Shown here in pieces: positions 8,705-40,697 of a stretch of 64,000 nt of DNA. How positions within the stretch are numbered: the first letter of the stretch is position 1; each line of letters opens with the position of its first letter. The notes below the pieces were generated by a model that was not told where the DNA came from, did not search any database, and saw only the letters and a program-made list of their open reading frames with translations. Origin of the DNA: Rhizobium brockwellii (GTDB lineage: Bacteria > Pseudomonadota > Alphaproteobacteria > Rhizobiales > Rhizobiaceae). The translations under genes and the position numbers were made by a program. The DNA lies in assembly GCF_000769405.2 (NCBI RefSeq), contig NZ_CP053439.1:1798001-1862000 (forward strand). Reading direction: 5' to 3'.

Positions 8705-9721
8705 GTGTGCCCGAAAGATAATCATTTGATTTCCAAGGACCTCGCAGCGCCTTTCCGAATCGGACCCGTGTCCGTGCGGAACCGCGTTGTGCTGGCGCCG
8801 ATGTCCGGCGTCACGGATATGCCCTTCCGCGAGCTTGCCTGGCGCTTCGGCGCCGGCCTCGTCGTCACCGAGATGGTGGCGAGCCGCGAACTGGTCAACG
8901 ACACGGCCGAATCCTGGTCGCGGCTCAGTGCTGCGGGCTTCCGGCCGCATATGGTGCAGCTTGCCGGGCGCGAGGCGCACTGGATGGCGGAGGCCGCCAA
9001 GATCGCCGCCGATCATGGCGCCGATATCATCGACATCAACATGGGCTGTCCGGCAAAGAAGGTGATCGGCGGTTATTCCGGCTCGGCGCTGATGCGCGAC
9101 CCCGATCACGCGCTCGGCCTCATCGAGGCGACGGTGAAGGCCGTCGACATTCCGGTGACGCTGAAGATGCGCCTCGGCTGGGACGAGAATTCGATCAACG
9201 CGCCTGATATCGCCCGCCGCGCCGAGGCCGCCGGGATCCAGCTTGTGACCATTCACGGGCGCACCCGCATGCAATTCTATGAAGGCCGCGCCGATTGGGA
9301 TGCGATCCGCGCCGTCCGCGAGGTGATCTCCATTCCGCTGATCGCCAATGGCGATGTCGAAACCGCAGGCGATGCGCAGGAAATATTGCGCCGCTCGGGC
9401 GCCGACGCCGTGATGATCGGCAGAGGCTGCCAGGGCAGGCCGTGGCATGCCGGCGTCATATCAGGGGCGCCCGCACCGCTACCCCCTGACATCGCCGATA
9501 TCGCCGTTGAACATTACCGGATGATGCTGGATTTCTATGGCGAGGCCGTGGCGATCCGCCACGGCCGTAAGCACCTTGGCTGGTATCTCCAGCGTTTCGC
9601 GCCTGATCTGTTGGGCGACGAAAAGGCTGCGATCATGACTTCGCGCGACCCGCGCGAAGTGGCCGCGCGTCTTTACGATGCATTGGCGGCCAGTGTTGTC
9701 GACAGCCGGGAGGCGGCATGA
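8705..9721 (+). CDS. dusB: tRNA-dihydrouridine synthase DusB (NifR3)
   Basis: The protein has 338 residues. The FMN-dependent TIM barrel is marked by [14 protein letters not shown] and the catalytic cysteine motif [10 protein letters not shown]. It reduces uridines in tRNA. The start is GTG at 8705; a TTG at 8726 is an alternative and no convincing ribosome binding site separates them. It is the first gene of the classic dusB(nifR3)-ntrB-ntrC operon; its TGA overlaps the ntrB ATG as ATGA, indicating translational coupling. Confidence 0.94.
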
Positions 9722-10872
9722 CGAAAGATATGACATCTCCGTCCGATCACGCCGGCGGGACCGTCGCCATGGCCGTGCTGAACGCCATCCAGAACCCCGT
9801 CGTCATGGTCGACGAATCCGGCTTCGTCGTTTTCGCCAATTGGGAAGCGGAGGCCTTTTTCGGCGCCAGCGCCTCGCATCTGGCCCGTTACCGGATTTCG
9901 ACCTTCATTCCTTTCGGCAGCCCGCTGCTTGCCCTGATCGACCAGGTGCGCGAGCGCAAGGCGCCGGTCAACGAATATCGCGTCGACCTGAGTTCGCCCC
10001 GCCTCGGACAGGACAAGCTCGTCGATCTCTACGTCGCCCCGGTGCTCAGCGAGCCCGGCGCCGTCGTCATCGTCTTTCAGGAACGCTCGATGGCCGACAA
10101 GATCGACCGGCAGCTGACGCATCGCGCCGCCGCCCGCTCGGTGACCGGCCTTGCTTCGATGCTGGCGCATGAGATCAAGAATCCGCTCTCCGGCATCCGC
10201 GGCGCCGCCCAGTTGCTCGAACAGTCTGCGGTCGACGACGATCGGGCGCTGACCCGGCTGATCTGCGACGAGACCGATCGCATCGTCTCGCTGGTCGATC
10301 GTATGGAAGTCTTTTCCGACGAACGCCCTGTCGACCGCATGCCGGTCAACATCCATTCGGTGCTCGATCATGTGAAGGCGGTCGCCAAGGCGGGTTTTGC
10401 GCGCAACATCCGCGTCACCGAGAGTTACGACCCGTCGCTGCCGGCCGTCTATGCCAATCGCGACCAGCTCGTCCAGGTCTTCCTCAATCTGGTGAAGAAC
10501 GCCGCCGAAGCGGTCGGCGATCGGCCGGACGGCGAGATCATGCTGACGACGGCCTATCGCCCCGGCATCCGTCTTTCGGTCGCCGGCACGCGCGAAAAGA
10601 TCTCGCTGCCGCTGGAATTCTGCGTCCACGACAACGGCCCCGGCGTCCCCCTCGATCTGGTGCCGCATCTCTTCGATCCCTTCATCACCACCAAGCCGAA
10701 CGGCAGCGGCCTCGGACTGGCGCTGGTCGCCAAGATCATTGGCGATCACGGCGGCATCATTGAATGCGACAGCCAGAACAGCCGCACGACATTCCGCGTT
10801 CTCATGCCGGCGTCGAAGGACGCCTCGCTCGAAGACGCCTCTATAGCAAGCTCGACAGGACCTTCTCGATGA
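9718..10872 (+). CDS. ntrB: Nitrogen regulation sensor kinase NtrB (GlnL)
   Basis: This 384-residue soluble kinase has an N-terminal PAS domain (about residues 15-110), the H-box [14 protein letters not shown] with His151, an N-box ([11 protein letters not shown]) and G-boxes ([16 protein letters not shown]). It is expected to phosphorylate NtrC under nitrogen limitation and act as a phosphatase with PII when nitrogen is plentiful. Start and stop both overlap neighbours by ATGA, so dusB, ntrB and ntrC are tightly coupled. Confidence 0.96.
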
Positions 10873-12320
10873 CAGCCACGATCCTCGTTGCAGATGATGA
10901 TGCGGCCATCCGGACCGTGCTCAACCAGGCTTTGAGCCGCGCCGGTTATGACGTTCGCATCACCTCCAACGCCGCTACCCTCTGGCGCTGGATTTCGGCA
11001 GGCGAGGGCGATCTGGTCGTCACCGATGTGGTGATGCCCGACGAAAACGCCTTCGATCTGCTGCCGCGCATCAAGAAGGCGCGGCCCGACCTGCCCGTCC
11101 TCGTCATGAGCGCCCAGAACACCTTCATGACCGCCATCAAGGCCTCGGAGAAGGGGGCTTACGACTATCTGCCGAAGCCCTTCGATCTCACCGAACTTAT
11201 CGGCATCATCGGCCGGGCGCTGGCCGAGCCGAAGCGCAAGCCCGCCAAGCTCGAAGACGACATGCAGGACGGCATGCCGCTCGTCGGCCGCTCGGCGGCG
11301 ATGCAGGAAATCTACCGCGTGCTCGCCCGCCTGATGCAGACGGACCTGACGCTGATGATCACCGGCGAATCCGGCACCGGCAAGGAACTCGTCGCCCGCG
11401 CGCTGCATGATTACGGCAAGCGCCGCAACGGCCCGTTCGTCGCGATCAACATGGCCGCGATCCCGCGCGACCTGATCGAATCCGAACTCTTCGGCCATGA
11501 GAAGGGCGCCTTTACCGGCGCGCAGACCCGCTCGACCGGCCGCTTCGAGCAGGCCGAAGGCGGCACGCTCTTCCTCGACGAGATCGGCGACATGCCGATG
11601 GACGCCCAGACACGGCTCTTACGCGTCCTGCAGCAGGGCGAATATACCACCGTCGGCGGCCGCACGCCGATCCGCACCGATGTGCGCATCGTTGCCGCCA
11701 CCAACAAGGACCTCAAGCAGGCGATCAACCAGGGCCTCTTCCGCGAGGACCTCTATTACCGCCTCAATGTCGTGCCGCTGCGCCTGCCGCCGCTGCGCGA
11801 CCGCGCCGAAGACATTCCCGATCTGGTGCGCCATTTCATCCAGCAGGCGGAAAAGGAAGGTCTTGGCTCCAAGCGCTTCGATCAGGAGGCGCTCGAACTG
11901 ATGAAGGCCTATGCCTGGCCCGGCAACGTCCGCGAGCTGGAAAATCTCATCCGCCGCCTGATGGCGCTTTACCCGCAGGATGTGATCACCCGCGAAATCA
12001 TCGACGCGGAACTGCGTTCCGACGTGCCCGACAGCCCGATCGACAAGGGGCCGATGCGCAGCGGCTCGATGACGATCGCGCAAGCCGTCGAGGAGAACAT
12101 GCGCAGCTATTTCGCAGGCTTCGGGGACAATCTGCCGCCGCCCGGCCTCTATGATCGCGTGCTGACCGAAATGGAATATCCGCTGATCCTCGCCGCTCTG
12201 ACGGCGACACGCGGCAACCAGATCAAGGCCGCCGATCTTCTCGGTCTCAACCGCAACACCTTGCGCAAGAAGATCAGGGAACTTGGCGTCTCGGTCTACA
12301 GGAGTTCCCGCACCGCCTGA
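10869..12320 (+). CDS. ntrC: Nitrogen regulator NtrC, sigma-54 enhancer-binding protein
   Basis: The protein has 483 residues: receiver domain with phospho-acceptor Asp53 (VVTDVVMP), AAA+ domain with Walker A GESGTGKE, the sigma-54 contact loop EKGAFTGA and Walker B FLDEIGDM, and a C-terminal Fis-type helix-turn-helix ([17 protein letters not shown]). All hallmarks of an active sigma-54 activator are present. It controls genes for nitrogen scavenging such as glnII and amtB in rhizobia (known for the family). Start overlaps the ntrB stop. Confidence 0.97.
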
Positions 12321-19136: not shown

Positions 19137-20462
19137 ATGCGCGCGACCGTCGTCGTGCCGGTTCTGAAATCGCGCAGTCGCGGCGGCCAGAGCGAATCGG
19201 CATCGACCCGCACGCCGGAAAGCCGGCTCGAAGAGGCGACGGGCCTTGCCCAGGCGATCGACCTCGATGTCGTCAATGGCCAGATCGTCCCGGTCAACGA
19301 CCCGAGACCGGCCACATTGCTCGGCACCGGCAAGATTGAGGAGATCAAGGCGCTGCTCGACGAGCGCGATTCCGGTCTCGTCATCGTCGATCATCCGCTG
19401 ACGCCGGTGCAGCAGCGCAACCTCGAAAAGGTATGGAACGCCAAGGTCATCGACCGGACGGGCCTCATCCTCGAAATTTTCGGCCGCCGCGCCTCCACCA
19501 AGGAAGGCACGCTGCAGGTCGATCTCGCTCATCTCAATTATCAGAAGGGCCGCCTGGTCCGAAGCTGGACCCACCTTGAACGCCAGCGCGGCGGCGGCGG
19601 TTTCATGGGCGGCCCCGGCGAAACTCAGATCGAAGCCGACCGACGGATGCTGCAGGACCGCATCATCAAGCTCGAACGCGAGCTGGAGCAGGTCGTGCGC
19701 ACCCGCCAGCTCCATCGCGCCAAGCGCCGCAAGGTGCCGCACCCGATCGTGGCGCTGGTCGGTTATACCAATGCCGGCAAGTCGACGCTGTTCAACCGCA
19801 TCACCGGCGCCGGCGTGCTGGCTGAAGACATGCTCTTTGCCACGCTCGACCCGACGCTTCGGCGCATGAAACTGCCGCACGGCCGCACCGTCATCCTGTC
19901 CGACACCGTCGGCTTCATCTCCGACCTGCCGACCCATCTGGTCGCCGCCTTCCGGGCGACGCTGGAAGAGGTGCTGGAAGCCGATCTCATCCTGCATGTC
20001 CGGGACATGTCCGATGCCGACAACCAGGCGCAGAGCTCCGACGTGATGCGCATCCTGAACGACCTCGGCATCGACGAGGCCGAAGCCGAAAAGCGACTGA
20101 TCGAGGTCTGGAACAAGATCGACCGGCTGGAGCCCGAGGTGCACGATGCCATGGTGCAAAAATCGGCGGGCGCTAGCAACGTGGTGGCGGTTTCGGCCGT
20201 CAGCGGCGAAGGCGTCGATACGCTGATGGAAGAGATCAGCCGCAGACTGTCAGGCGTGATGACCGTGGCGACGATCCGCCTTCCGGTCGACAAGCTGGCG
20301 CTGCTGCCCTGGCTTTACGATCACGCGATCGTCGACGGCCGCGAGGATAATGAGGACGGCACGATCACCCTCGATCTGCGCCTTTCCGAAACCGAGGCGA
20401 CCGAACTCGAACGGCGTATTGGCAATGGCTCGAGGTCTTCAAAGGAAGATTGGGAACGGTAG
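19137..20462 (+). CDS. hflX: GTPase HflX
   Basis: This 441-residue ribosome-associated GTPase has an N-terminal HflX domain with a glycine-rich GGGGFMGGPGETQIE stretch, then G1 GYTNAGKST, G3 DTVGFISDLP and NKIDRL (G4). It splits stalled or hibernating ribosomes in E. coli. The ATG at 19137 has AGGGA five bases upstream. The frame stays open upstream to 19038, but the only candidate starts there are non-standard (ATT at 19074). Forms an operon with hfq. Confidence 0.94.
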   Translation: MRATVVVPVLKSRSRGGQSESASTRTPESRLEEATGLAQAIDLDVVNGQIVPVNDPRPATLLGTGKIEEIKALLDERDSGLVIVDHPLTPVQQRNLEKVWNAKVIDRTGLILEIFGRRASTKEGTLQVDLAHLNYQKGRLVRSWTHLERQRGGGGFMGGPGETQIEADRRMLQDRIIKLERELEQVVRTRQLHRAKRRKVPHPIVALVGYTNAGKSTLFNRITGAGVLAEDMLFATLDPTLRRMKLPHGRTVILSDTVGFISDLPTHLVAAFRATLEEVLEADLILHVRDMSDADNQAQSSDVMRILNDLGIDEAEAEKRLIEVWNKIDRLEPEVHDAMVQKSAGASNVVAVSAVSGEGVDTLMEEISRRLSGVMTVATIRLPVDKLALLPWLYDHAIVDGREDNEDGTITLDLRLSETEATELERRIGNGSRSSKEDWER

Positions 20463-27640: not shown

Positions 27641-28570
27641 TCGGATCACGATCAACCAGAGCGAAACCGTCACCACCGAAAGCACCGTCGTGATCAGGAT
27701 CGTCGCCGAGGCGCGCTCCTGCCAGACGCCGTATTGCTGGCCAATGACGAAGACGTTGGTCGCCGTCGGCAGCGAGGCGAGCAGCACGGCCGCCTGAATC
27801 CAGACCGGCTCGAAACCACCAATCGCCGTCAGCGCAACGAAAACCGCGATCGGATGCAGGATCAGCTTCGCCGGCACGATATAGGAGATCTCGGCCGGGA
27901 TCCGCTTCAGCGGCCGGAGCGCCAGCGTCACCCCCATGGCAAAGAGCGCGCAGGGCGCCGCCGCCTGGGCGAGATAATCGACCAGGCGCTGAAACGCCTG
28001 CGGCTGGTCGATGTGCAAGGCGGCTACGGCAAAGCCCAGCGCTGTCGACAGGATGAAGGGATGCAGCGCGACCTTCCGGACGATATCGGCGACAAGTTGG
28101 CCTGTTGAACGCTTGTCGTCGCCGGCTGCTGCCATCAGCGCCGGCGCCACGATGAAATGCAGCGCGTTTTCGAAGCAGATGATCAGCGCCACCGGCACCG
28201 CCGCGCCATCGCCGAGCGCCAAGAGTGCCAGGCCCGGCCCCATATAGCCGATATTGCCATAGGCGCCGGCAAAGGACTGGATGGTGCAATCGGCAAGCGA
28301 ATTGCCGCGCACGACGCGGCCGATGACGAAAAGCAGGATGAAGACCGCATAGGTCGCCGCGATGTCGGTGACAATGAAATCGACGCGCGTCAGCTCTTCG
28401 ATCGGCGTGCGCGAGACGAGCTTGAAGAACAGAGCGGGCAGGGCGGCGTAAATGATGAAGGTGTTCAGCCAGCCGAGCGCTTCGGCCGGCTGCTTGGTTG
28501 CCTTGGCGGCGATGTAACCGATTAGGATCAGGCCGAAGAACGGCAATAACAGGCTGACGATATCGGCCAA
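27608..28570 (-). CDS. AEC-family transporter (auxin efflux carrier fold)
   Basis: This 320-residue integral membrane protein has about ten hydrophobic helices in two inverted halves. The N-terminal LPFFGLILIGYIAAK and FAGAYGNIGYMGPGLAL are characteristic of the AEC family, which includes malonate and auxin carriers. Substrate unknown. Its end overlaps the UbiH-like gene on the other strand. Upstream lies the 3 x 56 bp repeat array, which may carry or disturb its promoter. Confidence 0.88.
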   Translation of the reverse strand: MADIVSLLLPFFGLILIGYIAAKATKQPAEALGWLNTFIIYAALPALFFKLVSRTPIEELTRVDFIVTDIAATYAVFILLFVIGRVVRGNSLADCTIQSFAGAYGNIGYMGPGLALLALGDGAAVPVALIICFENALHFIVAPALMAAAGDDKRSTGQLVADIVRKVALHPFILSTALGFAVAALHIDQPQAFQRLVDYLAQAAAPCALFAMGVTLALRPLKRIPAEISYIVPAKLILHPIAVFVALTAIGGFEPVWIQAAVLLASLPTATNVFVIGQQYGVWQERASATILITTVLSVVTVSLWLIVIRSGLLPLQLFP

Positions 28571-28618
28571 GAGGTCTTCCAGTACGCGGGGATGATCGGC
28601 GGGTCAGGATCTGACTTA

Positions 28619-28786
28619 AGCAATTCCAGCAAAAGTGTGTAGCGGTTTTGCGTTCGGAATTGCGCAGAAACAAGAGCAATTCCAGCAAAAGTGTGTAGCG
28701 GTTTTGCGTTCGGAATTGCGCAGAAACAAGAGCAATTCCAGCAAAAGTGTGTAGCGGTTTTGCGTTCGGAATTGCTCAAAAAACAA
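28619..28786. repeat. Three direct 56-bp repeats, each a stem-loop
   Basis: Units start at 28619, 28675 and 28731 and are near identical; the last diverges at its end. Within each unit GCAATTCC pairs with GGAATTGC and AGCAAAA pairs with TTTTGCG, so each can fold. The array lies upstream of the AEC transporter and downstream of the MBL hydrolase. Confidence 0.92.
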
Positions 28787-28791
28787 ACCGG

Positions 28792-28830
28792 TAGAGCGTG
28801 GACTCATTCACGCGATGAGTACACGCTCTA
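28792..28830. repeat. Palindromic intergenic element next to the 56-bp array
   Basis: TAGAGCGTG at 28792 pairs with CACGCTCTA ending at 28830, with an inner CTCATTC/GATGAGT pairing. It resembles in design the palindromes at 40698-40812 and may be a member of a dispersed repeat family. Confidence 0.7.
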
Positions 28831-33295: not shown

Positions 33296-33412
33296 TCAAA
33301 TCATGCCAAATTCGGCGCGCATTGCGACCGCCGGATGCTGACGGCCGTAGACCAGTCCCGCTCCGATTCCCTGCGAAGCCCCGGTGATAACCGCGGTTTT
33401 ATGCACGCTCAT
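33296..33412 (-). pseudogene. Truncated SDR gene remnant (N-terminus only)
   Basis: From an ATG at 33412 the frame reads 21 residues typical of the SDR start (KTAVITGASQGIG), then changes to unrelated residues (RQHPAVAMRAEF) and stops at 33296. Only the cofactor-binding beta-alpha-beta start of an SDR survives. It indicates a deletion or rearrangement just upstream of the aldehyde dehydrogenase gene. Confidence 0.72.
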
Positions 33413-33577
33413 GCCTGCCTCCGGCTCGGCGACGCGGGTAGCCTTCGTTCGCATTGCGGCGCGTGCTCCCTCGATTGATGCGTTGACCGGCTGCGTGCCG
33501 GAAGCAGCCGGACAGTCTGCGTCGTCCTCCGCTCTGCCGGGACAATCGCGCCGAAAACCGTGCCACGATATTGTACG

Positions 33578-33595
33578 AAGGTGTCTCCGATACCT
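33578..33595. promoter_or_regulatory. Operator element B upstream of nitronate monooxygenase
   Basis: AAGGTGTCTCCGATACCT is an inverted repeat (AGGT..ACCT; with flanks CGAAGGT..ACCTTCG). Sixteen of 18 bases recur at 37494-37511. Confidence 0.6.
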
Positions 33596-33611
33596 TCGGA
33601 TCGGGGTGCCG

Positions 33612-33628
33612 CCTTGGGCACACCAAGG
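33612..33628. promoter_or_regulatory. Operator element A upstream of nitronate monooxygenase
   Basis: CCTTGGGCACACCAAGG is a perfect 6-5-6 inverted repeat. TTGGGCAYACCAAGGT is shared with 37483-37498, upstream of the alpha/beta hydrolase. Probably the site of an unlinked regulator. Confidence 0.62.
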
Positions 33629-33693
33629 TACAATAGACGTGAGGAATGGCCGGAGGTATCACCCCAGCAGCACCACGAATGATTGGAGTTCAC

Positions 33694-34779
33694 ATGACTC
33701 GCTGGCCGGATCGCCGCATCCTCGATCTGTTCGGGATCGAGCTTCCCATCATACAGGCGCCCATGGCGGGGGCGACGACCGTAGACATGGTGGTAGCCAC
33801 CGCCAAGGCCGGAGGGCTGGGTTCGCTGCCGAGCGCCTTGTTGAACGTCGAGGGGCTCCGCAAGGCCTTGGGGGAGATCCGCGCGGCGACCAAGGCGTCC
33901 GTCAACGTGAACTTTTTCGCGCACCTTTCGCCGGCCGACGATCCGTCAGCGCAGGCGCGCTGGAGAGCACTGCTTGCACCATACTATGCCGAAGCCGATC
34001 TCGATCCGGCTACGATAGTCGCGGGAGGCGTGCGTGCGCCTTTCGACCCCGCCTTCTGCGATGTCGTGGAGGATTTGAGGCCTGAGGTGGTGAGCTTTCA
34101 TTTCGGGCTTCCGGCAAGGGAGCTCGTACAGCGGGTGAAGGCCACCGGCGCCAAAGTCGTTTCCTCCGCGACCACCGTCGCCGAGGCAGTATGGTTGGAA
34201 GCAAACGGAGTCGATGCCGTCATTGCGATGGGTTTCGAGGCGGGTGGCCACCGAGGCAACTTTCTGACAGATAACATGGCGACGCAGGTTGGCACGATGG
34301 CGCTCGTACCACAGGTCGTCGACGCAGTTGATGTTCCGGTCATTGCAGCGGGCGGCATCGCCGACGGACGAGGGGTGGCTGCCGCACTGATGCTGGGCGC
34401 TTCCGCCGTTCAGATCGGAACGGCATACCTGTTCTGTCCGGAGGCGCGCATTCCCGACGTCCACGCTGAGGCGCTGGCCGCCTCGAGAGACGACAGCACT
34501 GCGATTACGAACGTGTTTACCGGTCGTCCGGCGAGGAGCGTGGTCAATCGGCTCGTGCGCGAGCTTGGCCCAATCTCGGAGGGCGTTCCTGCATTTCCAA
34601 CGGCGGCCGCCGCGCTTGCCCCTATCCGAGCGAAGGCGGAGGCGGACTCGCGCGACGATTTCACGAATCTGTGGTCGGGACAGGCCGCAAAACTCGCTTT
34701 GAGGACAGGCGCAGAAACGCTGACTCGTGAGCTCTATTTAACGGCGCTTGACGTTCTCGATCGGCGCACGTCCTTCTGA
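33694..34779 (+). CDS. Nitronate monooxygenase (2-nitropropane dioxygenase family)
   Basis: This 361-residue FMN TIM-barrel protein has IIQAPMAGATT at the N-terminus, the MGFEAGGHRGNF catalytic His region and IAAGGIADGRGVAAALMLGASAVQIGTAY-type phosphate loop (first part IAAGGIADGRG). It oxidises nitroalkanes or 3-nitropropionate-type nitronates to carbonyl compounds. GGAG lies 6-9 bases before the ATG at 33694. A two-part operator lies 65-115 bp upstream. Confidence 0.88.
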   Translation: MTRWPDRRILDLFGIELPIIQAPMAGATTVDMVVATAKAGGLGSLPSALLNVEGLRKALGEIRAATKASVNVNFFAHLSPADDPSAQARWRALLAPYYAEADLDPATIVAGGVRAPFDPAFCDVVEDLRPEVVSFHFGLPARELVQRVKATGAKVVSSATTVAEAVWLEANGVDAVIAMGFEAGGHRGNFLTDNMATQVGTMALVPQVVDAVDVPVIAAGGIADGRGVAAALMLGASAVQIGTAYLFCPEARIPDVHAEALAASRDDSTAITNVFTGRPARSVVNRLVRELGPISEGVPAFPTAAAALAPIRAKAEADSRDDFTNLWSGQAAKLALRTGAETLTRELYLTALDVLDRRTSF

Positions 34780-34979
34780 TGGGAACTTTTGTCAATTCTA
34801 CCTATCCGCGGGGAGCGGTCTGCCGCAACGCAAACCTTCACCCGGCAGTTCACAACGACCAGTTTGATGAAGGCCGCCGCGTCTCCTCCCGGTCGAGCAT
34901 TCGAAGATGCTGGCCGGTTACCAGAAACTGACCTTTGGGTAAGAAGCTGCGCCGATCAATGTAGGCGCCCTCAATGGCT

Positions 34980-36017
34980 CTAGCCGAGACGGTATGCGCG
35001 AACGATCGGTGCGACGTGGGTGCCAAGAAGTTCGATCGAACGGCGCATTGCTTCGGTCTCCAAGGCGGCGGTACTCATCTGGAAGGTGAGGCGAGAAACC
35101 CCTCCCAATGTCCTGTTAACATGCTCGATCTTTGCCGCAACCGTCTGCGGGCTGCCAACCAGAAACGCGCCGTTCGGACCGCACATGAAGTCGAATTGTG
35201 CCTGCGTTGGTGGGGGCCAACCCCGTTCCCGTCCAGCGTCGGTGAACATCTGGAACCAGCCGGGGAAGAACGCTTCCCTGGCTGCCTTGTCGGTCTCCCC
35301 GACAAAGCCGAGAGCGTGCACGCCGACCCTCTGTTCGTCGCTTGGATGGCCCGCGGCCAGCCCTGCACGTCGATAGAGTTCGACCAACGGCTGAAACCGC
35401 TCGAAGCTACCGCCGATGATGGCGACCATCAGCGGCAAGCCAAGTGTTCCGGCGCGGATGAAGGATTCGGGCGTCCCGCCAACACCCAGCCAGATTGGCA
35501 AGGTTGGCTGGTGCGGACGGGGAAAGACACCCTCGCCACTGAGGGACGGTCGAAAGCGGCCCTGCCACTCGATCCTGGGTTTTTCCCTGATCTTCAGCAA
35601 CAGGTCCAGCTTCTCCGCGAAGAGGGCATCGTAGTCTCGCAGGTCGAATCCGAACAGGGGATAGGCCTCCACGGACGACCCGCGGCCGACTACGATTTCC
35701 GCTCGTCCGCGCGATATCAAATCCAGTGTGGCGAATTCCTGAAAGAGCCGCACGGGGTCGGCGGCGCTGAGGACGGCGACAGCGCTTGTCAGCCTGATCG
35801 ACTTCGTGCGCGCGGCGGCGGCCGCAAGGATCACGGCTGGCGCTGAATCAAGCGCGTTCTCTCGATGATGTTCTCCCATGCCAAAGACGTCGAGACCGAC
35901 TTGATCGGCCAGCTCGACCTCTGCAAGTACGCTCTCCATGCGATCGATGGCCGACTGCAGTCGTCCCGTAGCCGGGTCGTTCAGCAGCATCGCAAAACTA
36001 TCGATACCGATTTCCAA
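34980..36017 (-). CDS. Luciferase-like (LLM class) flavin monooxygenase
   Basis: This 345-residue TIM-barrel protein uses reduced FMN. GMGEHHRENALDSAPAVILAA (EHH motif) and GRAEIVVGRGSSVEAYPLFG are family signatures. The start is taken as TTG at 36017 because AAAGGATCC is correctly spaced and LEIGIDSFA is where family members begin; an in-frame ATG at 36077 would add 20 non-conserved residues. It is convergent with nitronate monooxygenase, suggesting linked oxidation of a small organic substrate. Confidence 0.85.
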   Translation of the reverse strand: MEIGIDSFAMLLNDPATGRLQSAIDRMESVLAEVELADQVGLDVFGMGEHHRENALDSAPAVILAAAAARTKSIRLTSAVAVLSAADPVRLFQEFATLDLISRGRAEIVVGRGSSVEAYPLFGFDLRDYDALFAEKLDLLLKIREKPRIEWQGRFRPSLSGEGVFPRPHQPTLPIWLGVGGTPESFIRAGTLGLPLMVAIIGGSFERFQPLVELYRRAGLAAGHPSDEQRVGVHALGFVGETDKAAREAFFPGWFQMFTDAGRERGWPPPTQAQFDFMCGPNGAFLVGSPQTVAAKIEHVNRTLGGVSRLTFQMSTAALETEAMRRSIELLGTHVAPIVRAYRLG

Positions 36018-36333
36018 CGAAGGATCCTTTCGAGGCACTGTTGCCACCCAACAGCGGTGGTCGCGGAGTTTCGGCACTCCAGCTTCTAAATGACTCGTCT
36101 TGGCGCTGGGGTGGAGCGGACACGACGGTGTCTATCTGACAAAAAGCGCCTCCCGCTTCATCACACAACTGACAGGCGTCCCACTACCCGTCATTTTCCG
36201 ATGGATACCATCCGAATATTCGATAGGTGAGTTTGTTTGTGCCGAGGCACAATGCAGGCGCTGGTCCGGCCTTCCGCACGTACTGGACTGCAGGCTGGCA
36301 ATCCTCGGAAGAGCCGTCCACCAATGCCGGTGG
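36018..36333. other. 316-bp intergenic region upstream of the LLM monooxygenase
   Basis: It holds GATGGATACCATC (about 36199-36211) and TTGTGCCGAGGCACAA (about 36237-36252), both palindromes, the second near perfect over 16 bp. These are candidate operators for the LLM gene. No coding region was recognised. Confidence 0.5.
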
Positions 36334-37371
36334 TCATGCCCATGCGTCCACGTCGATAACGGCCTGAGCGAAAGCCTCTGGTGACTCCTGCGGGAGATTA
36401 TGGCCTATACCGCCCTTGATCAGCCGGTGTTCGTATTTTGCCTTGAATTTTCCGGCATAGGCCTTCGGATCAGGATGCGGTGCTCCGTTGGCATCGCCTT
36501 CCATCGTGATCGCAGGCACGTGGATTTCGGGAGCGGATGCGAGCTTGGTTTCGAACTCGTCGAACCGCTTCTCTCCCTCCGTCAGTCCGAGCCGCCAACG
36601 GTAGTTGTGGACGACGATCGCGACATGGTCCGGATTGGCGAATGCCGCGGCGCTTCGTTCAAACGTCTTGTCATCGAATTTCCACTGAGGAGAGGCGAGT
36701 TGCCAGATGAGCCTGGCGAAGTCGTTCGTGTATTTTTCATAGCCGTCGCGACCGCGTTCTGTCGCGAAATAGAACTGATACCACCACTGCAGTTCGGCGG
36801 GTGGCGGCAACGGCACCTTTCCGGCGGTCTGGTTCCCGATGAGATAGCCGCTGACGGAGACCAAGCCCTTGCATCGTTCCGGCCAGAGCGCGGCGACAAT
36901 GCCGGCGGTCCGCGCGCCCCAGTCGAAACCTGCGACGGTGGCTCGCTCGATCCTCAGAACGTCCATCAGCTTGATGGCATCGACTGCCAGCGCCGATTGT
37001 TGGCCGTTGCGCATCGTGTCGTCGGCGAGGAACTTCGTGCTGCCGTATCCTCGCAGATGGGGGACGATGACACGATGGCCCTGGTCTGCGAGCAACGGGG
37101 CGACCTCGGCGAACGCATTGATGTCATAGGGCCAGCCGTGGAACAGAAGGACGGGCGATCCGTCGCTGGGGCCGAGTTCGGCGTATCCGACACTGAGGTC
37201 TCCCGCGTCGATTTGTCCGTCCGCGACCAGCCCATGGCCATTCTTTCGGGCAACCTTCTTGCCCTGGCCAGCACCCGCGGTATGTCCCGCGAGGATCCCC
37301 GCCGCCGTCAATCCGAGTGCGATCCCGCCGAAGGACCGACGTGTGAGGCTCCCATTTCTAAGATTGCTCAT
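36334..37371 (-). CDS. Exported alpha/beta hydrolase (epoxide-hydrolase type)
   Basis: The protein has 345 residues. A twin-arginine signal (TRRSFGG at residues 10-16, then a hydrophobic stretch to about 33) predicts folded export. The hydrolase core has the oxyanion HGWPYD, the nucleophile elbow GFDWGARTA with Asp as nucleophile, and the catalytic His in GGIGHNLPQE. Asp nucleophile places it with epoxide hydrolases, haloalkane or fluoroacetate dehalogenases rather than Ser esterases. Its promoter region carries the two-part operator shared with nitronate monooxygenase. Confidence 0.85.
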   Translation of the reverse strand: MSNLRNGSLTRRSFGGIALGLTAAGILAGHTAGAGQGKKVARKNGHGLVADGQIDAGDLSVGYAELGPSDGSPVLLFHGWPYDINAFAEVAPLLADQGHRVIVPHLRGYGSTKFLADDTMRNGQQSALAVDAIKLMDVLRIERATVAGFDWGARTAGIVAALWPERCKGLVSVSGYLIGNQTAGKVPLPPPAELQWWYQFYFATERGRDGYEKYTNDFARLIWQLASPQWKFDDKTFERSAAAFANPDHVAIVVHNYRWRLGLTEGEKRFDEFETKLASAPEIHVPAITMEGDANGAPHPDPKAYAGKFKAKYEHRLIKGGIGHNLPQESPEAFAQAVIDVDAWA

Positions 37372-37482
37372 GATTGCTTCTCCGATAATGGACGATGAAT
37401 GGACGCCTCGAGATCATGCTCAGAGAACGTTGGCATCGGGAGTTTGAGACTGATGACCGGGGTCCGCTAGTGGACGAAGGTA

Positions 37483-37511
37483 TTGGGCATACCAAGGTGT
37501 CGTCGATACCT
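37483..37511. promoter_or_regulatory. Operator elements A and B (overlapping) between hydrolase and small ORF
   Basis: TTGGGCATACCAAGGT (37483-37498) overlaps AAGGTGTCGTCGATACCT (37494-37511). ACGAAGGT precedes at 37474. All three blocks recur upstream of nitronate monooxygenase, so the two promoters are probably controlled by one protein. Confidence 0.62.
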
Positions 37512-37595
37512 AGGTGCAACAGCCGCCTCTTCTGCCGTTAGCCATACTGTTCTCCAGGCCGCGGGCGTTCCGCCGACGAGCTTTAGGAGAGGATG

Positions 37596-37814
37596 ATGAG
37601 CTACCGAGACAACGAGACGTCGGGGAGGCTTTTTCCCTGCGTCGCAATCCTTCTTGCGATGGCGGCCTTGGCCGGTGCCTTGGTATCGGTCAGACAACCC
37701 GTCGTGCCAGCCCGCGTCTGGGTACCCGTTCAGTCAGTCGGATCCTCGACCGTTAAGTCGGCGGCGGCGTGCTCCCCGGCATGGGCGGGCTGCAATCCGA
37801 CTGAGCCGATTTGA
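37596..37814 (+). CDS. Small putative membrane or secreted protein
   Basis: This 72-residue protein has one hydrophobic segment (about residues 13-33, PCVAILLAMAALAGALVSV) and a Pro/Ser-rich tail with two Cys. AGGAGA is well spaced before the ATG at 37596 (an ATG at 37593 is also possible). It is divergent from the exported hydrolase and would share its operator region. No family recognised; coding status is moderate. Confidence 0.42.
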   Translation: MSYRDNETSGRLFPCVAILLAMAALAGALVSVRQPVVPARVWVPVQSVGSSTVKSAAACSPAWAGCNPTEPI

Positions 37815-39878: not shown

Positions 39879-40639
39879 TTATCTGATCCATAGAACGATT
39901 GCGGCGATAGTGATGATTGCGAGGTAGTTTTCGGCAGTTTTTTCGAAGCGAGTAGCGACCCTTCGGAACTGCTTAAGTCTCGAGAAGCAGCATTCGATCA
40001 GGTGGCGCTGGGCATAGAGATGCTTGTCCAGCGGGTATTTTTGTGCGCGGGAAGGATTGTTGGGGATCACCGCGACTGCGCCTTTATCAGCGATGGCATT
40101 GCGCAGGCGATCGCTGTCATAAGCGGTGTCTGCCATGACGATGTCGGCGGGCAGGCCCTCAATCAGGGCATCGGCTTGCGGCGCATCGCCCTTCTGGCCT
40201 GCGGTCAGCCTGAAGCGGACCGGGCAGCCGAGACCACGCACAGCCATGTGGATTTTGGTGCTTAGGCCGCCGCGAGAACGGCCAAGGGCTTGATCTTCAG
40301 CCCCTTTTTTGCGCCGGCAGCGTGCTGATGGGCGCGGATGATGGTGGAATCAACAATCAGGTATTCGAAGTCCGGATCGTCTGACATCGCGGCGAACATG
40401 CGCCACCAGATGCCCTTCCGGCTCCAACGGCTGAAACGGCGGAAGACGCTGTTCCACTCCCCGAACACTTCCGGCAGGTCACGCCAGGGCGAGCCGGTAC
40501 GCACAATCCAAAGCACCGCCTCCACAAACATGCGGTTGTCGCGGCCAGACGAACCGCGCGTGCGCTCGTCACCAATGATGTGATGCGATATCCGCTCCCA
40601 CTGCTCGTCCCGAAGGATCAGACGATCCAAAACACCCAT
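39879..40639 (-). mobile_element. IS5-family transposase (two frames joined by -1 frameshift)
   Basis: The N-terminal frame (40639 down to its stop at 40262) has RDEQWERISHHI, GSPWRDLPEVFG and the first catalytic Asp in VDSTIIRAH. The C-terminal frame (to 39879) has the second Asp in MADTAYDS and the Glu-Arg-Lys end ECCFSRLKQFRRVATRFEK. A canonical slippery heptamer A AAA AAG at 40310-40304 would join them by -1 shift into a 253-residue DDE transposase, the size of the IS427-like group. Terminal inverted repeats were not found with confidence. Confidence 0.88.
40304..40310 (-). promoter_or_regulatory. Programmed -1 frameshift heptamer A AAA AAG
   Basis: In the zero frame the codons are GCA AAA AAG. 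Slipping back one base continues GGG GCT GAA GAT into the frame that carries the rest of the catalytic domain. Confidence 0.8.
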
Positions 40640-40697
40640 GACTGCCTCCAAAAGACAGTCTTGAATCTGATTTGCTCAGCCTTGGAAACCCAAGCCC

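Follow-up and report, generated by a model that had tools for sequence, protein, structure and literature searches.

A 16-bp inverted repeat, often in tandem, at detoxification-type promoters of Rhizobium brockwellii and its probable reader, a StyR-related response regulator

The closest described systems are StyS/StyR and TodS/TodT of Pseudomonas styrene and toluene catabolism, in which the response regulator joins a receiver to a GerE domain and the operator is an inverted repeat with an AC-N4-GT core. According to PMC2442086, StyR-P activates from a site at about −40 and several StyR sites occur at one promoter; PMC5874301 states that StyR-like proteins may recognise ATAAACN4GTTTAT and gives Lys175, Val176 and His179 as the contact residues of the StyR/TodT recognition helix. 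Response regulators with several inverted-repeat boxes are already known. Among the atypical NarL-type regulators of Streptomyces, BldM functions without being phosphorylated and WhiI acts through a heterodimer, and the switching of pseudo-receivers is said to 'remain a mystery' (PMC12632262). Here we analyse a sequence shared by the promoters of a nitronate monooxygenase (NMO) and an exported hydrolase in the window, by which we mean the whole 64,000-nucleotide stretch G000:C1:1798001-1862000 of a source genome of 7.1 Mb in seven contigs. Several promoters of the genome carry this sequence, which is very probably a genuine switch site. We consider it likely that it is the binding box of a StyR-related NarL/FixJ response regulator encoded at C1:1506114-1506773.

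The preliminary description of this stretch had proposed a two-part operator. Both of its motifs are present in both regions: TTGGGCAYACCAAGGT at 33614-33629 and 37483-37498, with no other window match at up to 3 mismatches, and AAGGTGTCKYCGATACCT at 33578-33595 and 37494-37511. The block ACGAAGGT is also common to the two (33575-33582 and 37474-37481, by eye). There is no single collinear match of more than 30 bases, as had been claimed, since the motifs overlap by AAGGT near the hydrolase and lie 18 bp apart and in reverse order near the NMO gene. Nor is the operator two-part. A single box, read in two registers, accounts for both motifs. Its copies often stand in tandem 17 bp apart, and the order of the motifs differs between the two places because the extra boxes lie 17 bp from their neighbours. 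TTGGGCAYACCAAGGT alone, at up to 3 mismatches, reached two matches in 7 of 100 shuffles; AAGGTGTCKYCGATACCT did so in none of 100. The unified pattern CGAYACCWWSGTRCAATRG, at up to 3 mismatches, gave 5 window matches, whereas shuffles averaged 0.32 and none of 100 reached 5. The likeness is thus clearly better than chance for AAGGTGTCKYCGATACCT and for the unified box, and less so for TTGGGCAYACCAAGGT alone. Four of the five CGAYACCWWSGTRCAATRG matches are promoter sites, with 1, 2, 2 and 3 mismatches (3 at the hydrolase site); the fifth (20144-20162, 3 mismatches) lies within a predicted open reading frame (ORF) and we took it as chance. A 17-bp palindrome, AGGTRT-N5-AYACCW, was also tried as the motif and proved to be the junction of two tandem boxes.

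The box is 16 bp long, a 7-2-7 inverted repeat CGAYACC-WW-SGTRCAA. The logo of 89 non-redundant sites shows the box, a weak but conserved −35 element TRGMC that directly abuts it, and then a distant A and T. Among 108 non-redundant sites outside the source genome, 63 have these two letters, four apart, at offset +37; at other offsets from +17 to +59 the mean was 3.9 and the maximum 15, at the next offset. We took this signal as the predicted −10 element, 17 bp after TRGMC. As it stands at one fixed distance, the box is predicted to be centred near −42, a position assigned by sequence alone relative to the predicted −10. We also considered TRCAAT as the −10; the box would then fall within the spacer, a MerR-like or repressor geometry. 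This reading was dropped because the −10 signal is found further downstream, about 32 nt from the box centre. Of 118 sites, 49 have a second box, for which we allowed up to 5 mismatches of 16, at exactly 17 bp upstream; no other distance from 8 to 99 accounted for more than 5.

We infer activation from this anatomy. Most likely a regulator dimer on the 16-bp inverted repeat (GAYAC-N4-GTRY) near −42, directly upstream of the weak −35, would contact RNA polymerase, compensate for that −35 and so activate sigma-70-type promoters. A second dimer on the box 17 bp upstream would strengthen activation, tandem boxes raising occupancy. The same response regulator could instead repress at these promoters, and the StyR system does have non-activating sites, STY1 and STY3, that serve repression (PMC2442086). 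Although the regulatory sign cannot be read from sequence, a box centred near −42, directly against a weak −35 and at a fixed distance from the −10, is the layout of an activator-dependent promoter, and we regard repression as rather unlikely.

To locate the box across the source genome we used the full 26-bp pattern at up to 3 mismatches with the reversed pattern as a control. The promoter bias that would be expected of an operator was evident: there were 9 matches against 0 in the control, and 8 of the 9 were intergenic and fell into three clusters. These are C1:1515.5-1516.4 kb (an SDR and then RidA leftward, a SnoaL-like gene and DJ-1), C1:1831.6-1835.5 kb, which is the cluster in the window, and C4:140.7-146.1 kb (an early-stop DJ-1-type gene, a tautomerase, an SDR, a glyoxalase-like gene, a LysR gene and a Tat-exported epoxide hydrolase). 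A position-weight scan of the window and the loci L019 and L020, calling promoters at a score of at least 13, returned twelve box promoters, four in each, of which one is weak (14.8) and one has no good −10. The regulon is wider than the two oxidative enzymes first proposed, four window promoters being served instead of two. The regulator would govern roughly ten to twelve promoters, grouped in three clusters and mostly of small-molecule detoxification-type enzymes (nitronate monooxygenase, SDRs, DJ-1, RidA, tautomerase, glyoxalase-like, epoxide hydrolase and exported hydrolase). From the enzyme families only, the inducer may be a reactive electrophile or a nitro compound, perhaps made by plants. 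The match at C6:47506 recurs letter for letter in G077, a regulator-negative genome, and may be conserved coding sequence. The palindrome matches at C1:736977, C1:737012 and, within an ORF, C1:2935228 were discarded as they did not fit the promoter model; the first two are AT-rich AGGTAT..ATACCT palindromes 35 bp apart and apparently unrelated to the box promoters. The DJ-1-type gene at L020:4074-4164, in which an early stop codon was seen by eye, stands behind a box-like site with 3 mismatches.

Across 100 genomes of the genus, the source genome included, we counted 200 box matches against 4 for the reversed control (summed by hand). Some of the promoters are paralogous, as both SDR promoters are, which would speak for chance similarity or a recent local duplication of promoter DNA as the explanation. 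With these counts, a geometry that holds after removal of redundancy and the agreement of the further family genomes described below, we give that explanation practically no weight. We then compared the genomes with at least two boxes to those with the regulator family, called at E ≤ 1e-40 to the own protein, that is the regulator of the source genome (31 genomes), or at ≥57% identity to the G008 protein, which adds G025 and G094. Both were present in 31 genomes, the regulator only in 2, the boxes only in 0 and neither in 67. The two regulator-only genomes, G025 and G035, have one box match each, and among the 67 regulator-negative genomes 12 have one match and none has more.

Other genes of the clusters followed the boxes less closely. 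The phi coefficient with at least two boxes was 0.96 for the regulator, 0.76 for a STAND-like ATPase, 0.55-0.62 for LysR and 0.60 for the NMO gene. The LysR-type regulator at C4 144835-145767, whose gene diverges from that of the epoxide hydrolase, was the binder we had first favoured: the gap between these two genes holds a zero-mismatch match to the full pattern, the 80 LysR loci together gave 38 matches against 0 in the control, and in 10 of the 80 a site lies upstream, no more than 400 bp from the LysR start. However, the other 70 have no such upstream site, and the co-occurrence led us to reject this candidate. With presence defined as a match at E ≤ 1e-100, 8 of the 31 multi-box genomes lack LysR (G009, G011, G027, G039, G063, G068, G087 and G088) and 12 of the 35 LysR genomes have fewer than two box matches, so the box does not track the LysR gene. 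Moreover, the epoxide hydrolase retains its box in clusters without this LysR, and the T-N11-A symmetry usual for LysR sites is absent from the box. We therefore hold it improbable that the box is the LysR operator. The LysR-similar loci come mostly from Rhizobium, Ensifer and Sinorhizobium. In a distant LysR group (many of L079-L121) another conserved element, TTTACTT..TTTTCGGGTGAATACT, was seen by eye about 60 bp upstream of LysR and is possibly the operator of that group itself.

We extended the comparison to a wider family sample of 199 genomes, 195 of them new, and carried over the cut-offs from the genus (up to 3 mismatches, at least two box matches, regulator E ≤ 1e-40). At least two boxes were found in 4 of 4 regulator-positive genomes (G171, G184, G198 and G244, with 4, 9, 5 and 7 matches) compared with 2 of the 191 others. 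Those 191 hold 18 box matches in total, and the reversed control gave 11 across the 195. The two exceptions, G126 and G133, have 2 matches each, with 3 mismatches and on different contigs, and no regulator call. Regulator matches were listed down to 1e-36, which brought in two weaker ones: in G272 (E 1.6e-38) the single box of the genome lies about 90 bp past the 3′ end of the regulator gene, and in G235 (8.9e-37) no box match was found in the genome.

The box is also conserved upstream of NMO orthologues. Taking the 30 best of 45 NMO matches, we found, in the 260 bp upstream, a box of either orientation with up to 3 mismatches at 20 of 21 regulator-positive and 0 of 9 regulator-negative loci. 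It faces the NMO gene at 17 of the 21; G053 and G070 have an NMO-facing box at 4 mismatches.

No protein with a helix-turn-helix (HTH) had been noticed between 28.8 and 37.8 kb of the window, and no HTH Pfam domain was found in the seven main proteins of that region. One factor encoded outside the window very probably joins the NMO and hydrolase promoters in one regulon, though it is unlinked relative to the window only: the candidate gene, about 325 kb from the NMO promoter, adjoins another cluster of the same regulon. Its 220-aa product has a receiver (Response_reg, E 4.5e-07; 30.5 bits, the cut-off being 30.2) and a C-terminal GerE HTH (E 1.1e-20), the domain order of the NarL/FixJ family. 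The closest relative in the PDB is StyR (1yio, E 3e-32) and the second FixJ (5xso), the rhizobial nitrogen-fixation regulator, which has the same domain architecture at lower similarity than StyR. The FixJ regulon differs from the box regulon. The recognition helix reads KAHRG in 38 of the 39 regulator loci examined; the sole exception is G235 with KVHRS, the genome in which no box match was found. Of two FixJ paralogues taken from the source genome, the one whose helix could be read (C2:520505) also has KVHRS, and StyR/TodT have KVHRH.

A tree of 31 rows, with some long branches and an arbitrary root, separated a canonical group (10) from a group of the own type (19), both with full support. 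The receiver is complete in 10 of 10 canonical members and in 0 of the 19 own-type members parsed. The box faces 7 of the 10 canonical regulator genes, at −127 to −159. Of a complete phospho-acceptor pocket (two acidic residues, Asp, Thr/Ser and Lys) the own regulator shows S, D, D, T, R and, with key phosphotransfer residues missing, has the character of a pseudo-receiver. Ordinary phosphorylation is doubtful because one acidic residue and the lysine are absent, but residual phosphorylation would still be conceivable, as the phosphorylatable Asp is retained.

Several observations weigh against assigning the box to this regulator. Co-occurrence alone cannot distinguish the regulator from the remaining cluster genes, and the regulator-positive set of the genus was defined after the box counts were known; by search with the own protein alone, G094 would be a multi-box genome without a regulator call. 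In the orthologue comparison 15 of the 45 NMO matches lie outside the count, 10 of them from regulator-positive genomes, G024 has no box at all at NMO, and G011 has only the divergent box there, none facing NMO having been found. Among the four window promoters, that of the hydrolase has the weakest box. Among the regulator genes themselves, 3 of 10 canonical ones have no facing box, and a facing box was found at 0 of the 19 own-type genes parsed. The own receiver is short of the acidic residue and the lysine named above. Finally, the own protein has K, A and G where StyR has K, V and H, so two of the three contact residues differ.

The own-type regulator gene is divergent from that of a winged-helix STAND-like ATPase at C1:1507041-1509884. 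The pair occupies C1:1506.1-1509.9 kb, or L183:8112-8774 for the regulator and 9042-11888 for the ATPase, a 948-aa protein with Trans_reg_C plus AAA/STAND-like domains (the own copy is 88% identical to the query). Coordinates compared by hand showed that the ATPase adjoins, and is divergent from, an own-type regulator in 22 of the 23 genomes with a close ATPase relative (≥64% identity); the gene is in pieces in two of the 22, and G025 is the unpaired exception. Close relatives occur in 22 of the 31 multi-box genomes and in only 1 other genome, so we asked whether the winged-helix protein binds the box, the response regulator being accessory. Against this, 9 of the 31 multi-box genomes have no such ATPase, and the box is a 7-2-7 inverted repeat, unlike the direct repeats that OmpR-type winged helices usually bind. 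We regard binding by the ATPase as improbable, slightly more so than binding by LysR.

If the response regulator reads the box, its own-type clade may have been freed from a kinase. We tentatively suggest that the divergent ATPase, sensing a small molecule, sets the activity of the own-type regulator on the detoxification regulon, and that elsewhere a kinase-controlled canonical sister reads the same box; for the two together we see a possibility, not the probable outcome. A duller alternative is that the own-type regulator is constitutively active and controlled by its protein level. For canonical members the likely input would be a PAS kinase of the cluster, as PAS kinases were found in the same cluster as the canonical regulator in G011. 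No kinase gene was seen beside the own regulator, the source genome as a whole not having been searched for kinases.

Compared with StyR/TodT, the box shares the AC-N4-GT skeleton but its outer bases differ, with GAYAC-N4-GTRCAA (half-site GAYAC) in place of ATAAAC. The predicted location near −42 and the tandem boxes resemble the StyR activating site at about −40 and its multiple sites, the positions here being read from the DNA. Unlike StyR/TodT, the targets are of the detoxification type, the own receiver is degenerate, an ATPase gene stands divergent and the boxes lie exactly 17 bp apart. BldM and WhiI are likewise receiver proteins without a known kinase, though targets and phylum differ. 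In the open-access literature we found no report of the regulon or its control, and among the papers found there on STAND ATPases and on atypical regulators none, as judged by titles and the beginnings of abstracts, describes a degenerate receiver paired with such an ATPase; a term search in the review PMC12632262 returned no mention of STAND or ATPase. As far as could be seen, three things are new: the box, its regulon, and a degenerate receiver paired with this ATPase. The analysis provides a set of rhizobial detoxification-type genes with a defined box, a regulon and a candidate regulator. Canonical and degenerate sister regulators appear to read the same box; with one near PAS kinases (in G011) and the other beside the ATPase, an exchange of input becomes testable, and the sister pair offers a natural case for how pseudo-receivers are switched.

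In the window itself, the NMO box GCACACC-AA-GGTACAA (33618..33633, + strand, score 24.9) faces the NMO gene and is kept at orthologous promoters. It is abutted by a weak −35, TAGACG (33634..33639, +), and 17 bp after this follows the predicted −10, TATCAC (33657..33662, +), which has the A of the A..T signal and not the T. The NMO gene (33694..34779, +) matches PF03060 with E 5.6e-75 for the longer reading 33646-34776; ATG 33694 probably is the start, fitting the predicted promoter best, because ATG 33646 would precede the predicted transcription start. A divergent box, AGACACC-TT-CGTACAA (33571..33586, − strand, score 25.4), with a predicted −10 GATTGT (33547-33542, −), faces left toward an SDR gene remnant; in regulator-positive genomes most NMO orthologues also have such a divergent box. 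An additional 7-2-7 box, CGATACC-TT-CGGATCG (33588..33603, 2/16 mismatches), has its centre 17 bp from the left-facing one. The remnant (33350..33412, −, extent by eye) consists of about 20 N-terminal codons resembling the intact SDR at L019:3668-4390 and sits behind an intact-looking box promoter.

The hydrolase box CAATACC-TT-CGTCCAC (37470..37485, −, score 18.2) faces the exported alpha/beta hydrolase (36334..37371, −; PF00561, E 2.2e-20; Tat-type signal by eye), and the position-weight scan placed its −35 at 37469-37464 and its predicted −10, CAAACT, at 37446-37441 (−). On the other side the box CGATACC-TA-GGTGCAA (37504..37519, +, score 21.4), with a −35 at 37520-37525 and a predicted −10 CATACT at 37543-37548 (+, same scan), faces a small ORF. 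Between the divergent promoters lies a central box, GCATACC-AA-GGTGTCG (37487..37502, 2/16 mismatches), 17 bp centre to centre from each neighbour. The small ORF encodes a 73-aa protein (37593..37814, +) that looks membrane-anchored by eye; it has no Pfam match but is conserved, for six other box clusters hold relatives, situated next to the hydrolase or close by. Its phmmer search, in which 10 loci were offered, one of them from the source genome, matched small ORFs of L178, L173, L185, L187, L184 and L190 with E 6.9e-14 to 9.8e-10. Near this box cluster two ORFs at 39879-40651 resemble insertion sequence (IS) transposase halves by eye. At 28528-28807, upstream of a transporter-like gene, we noted by eye repeated DNA with NSERKTATHFCWN-like peptides in several frames.

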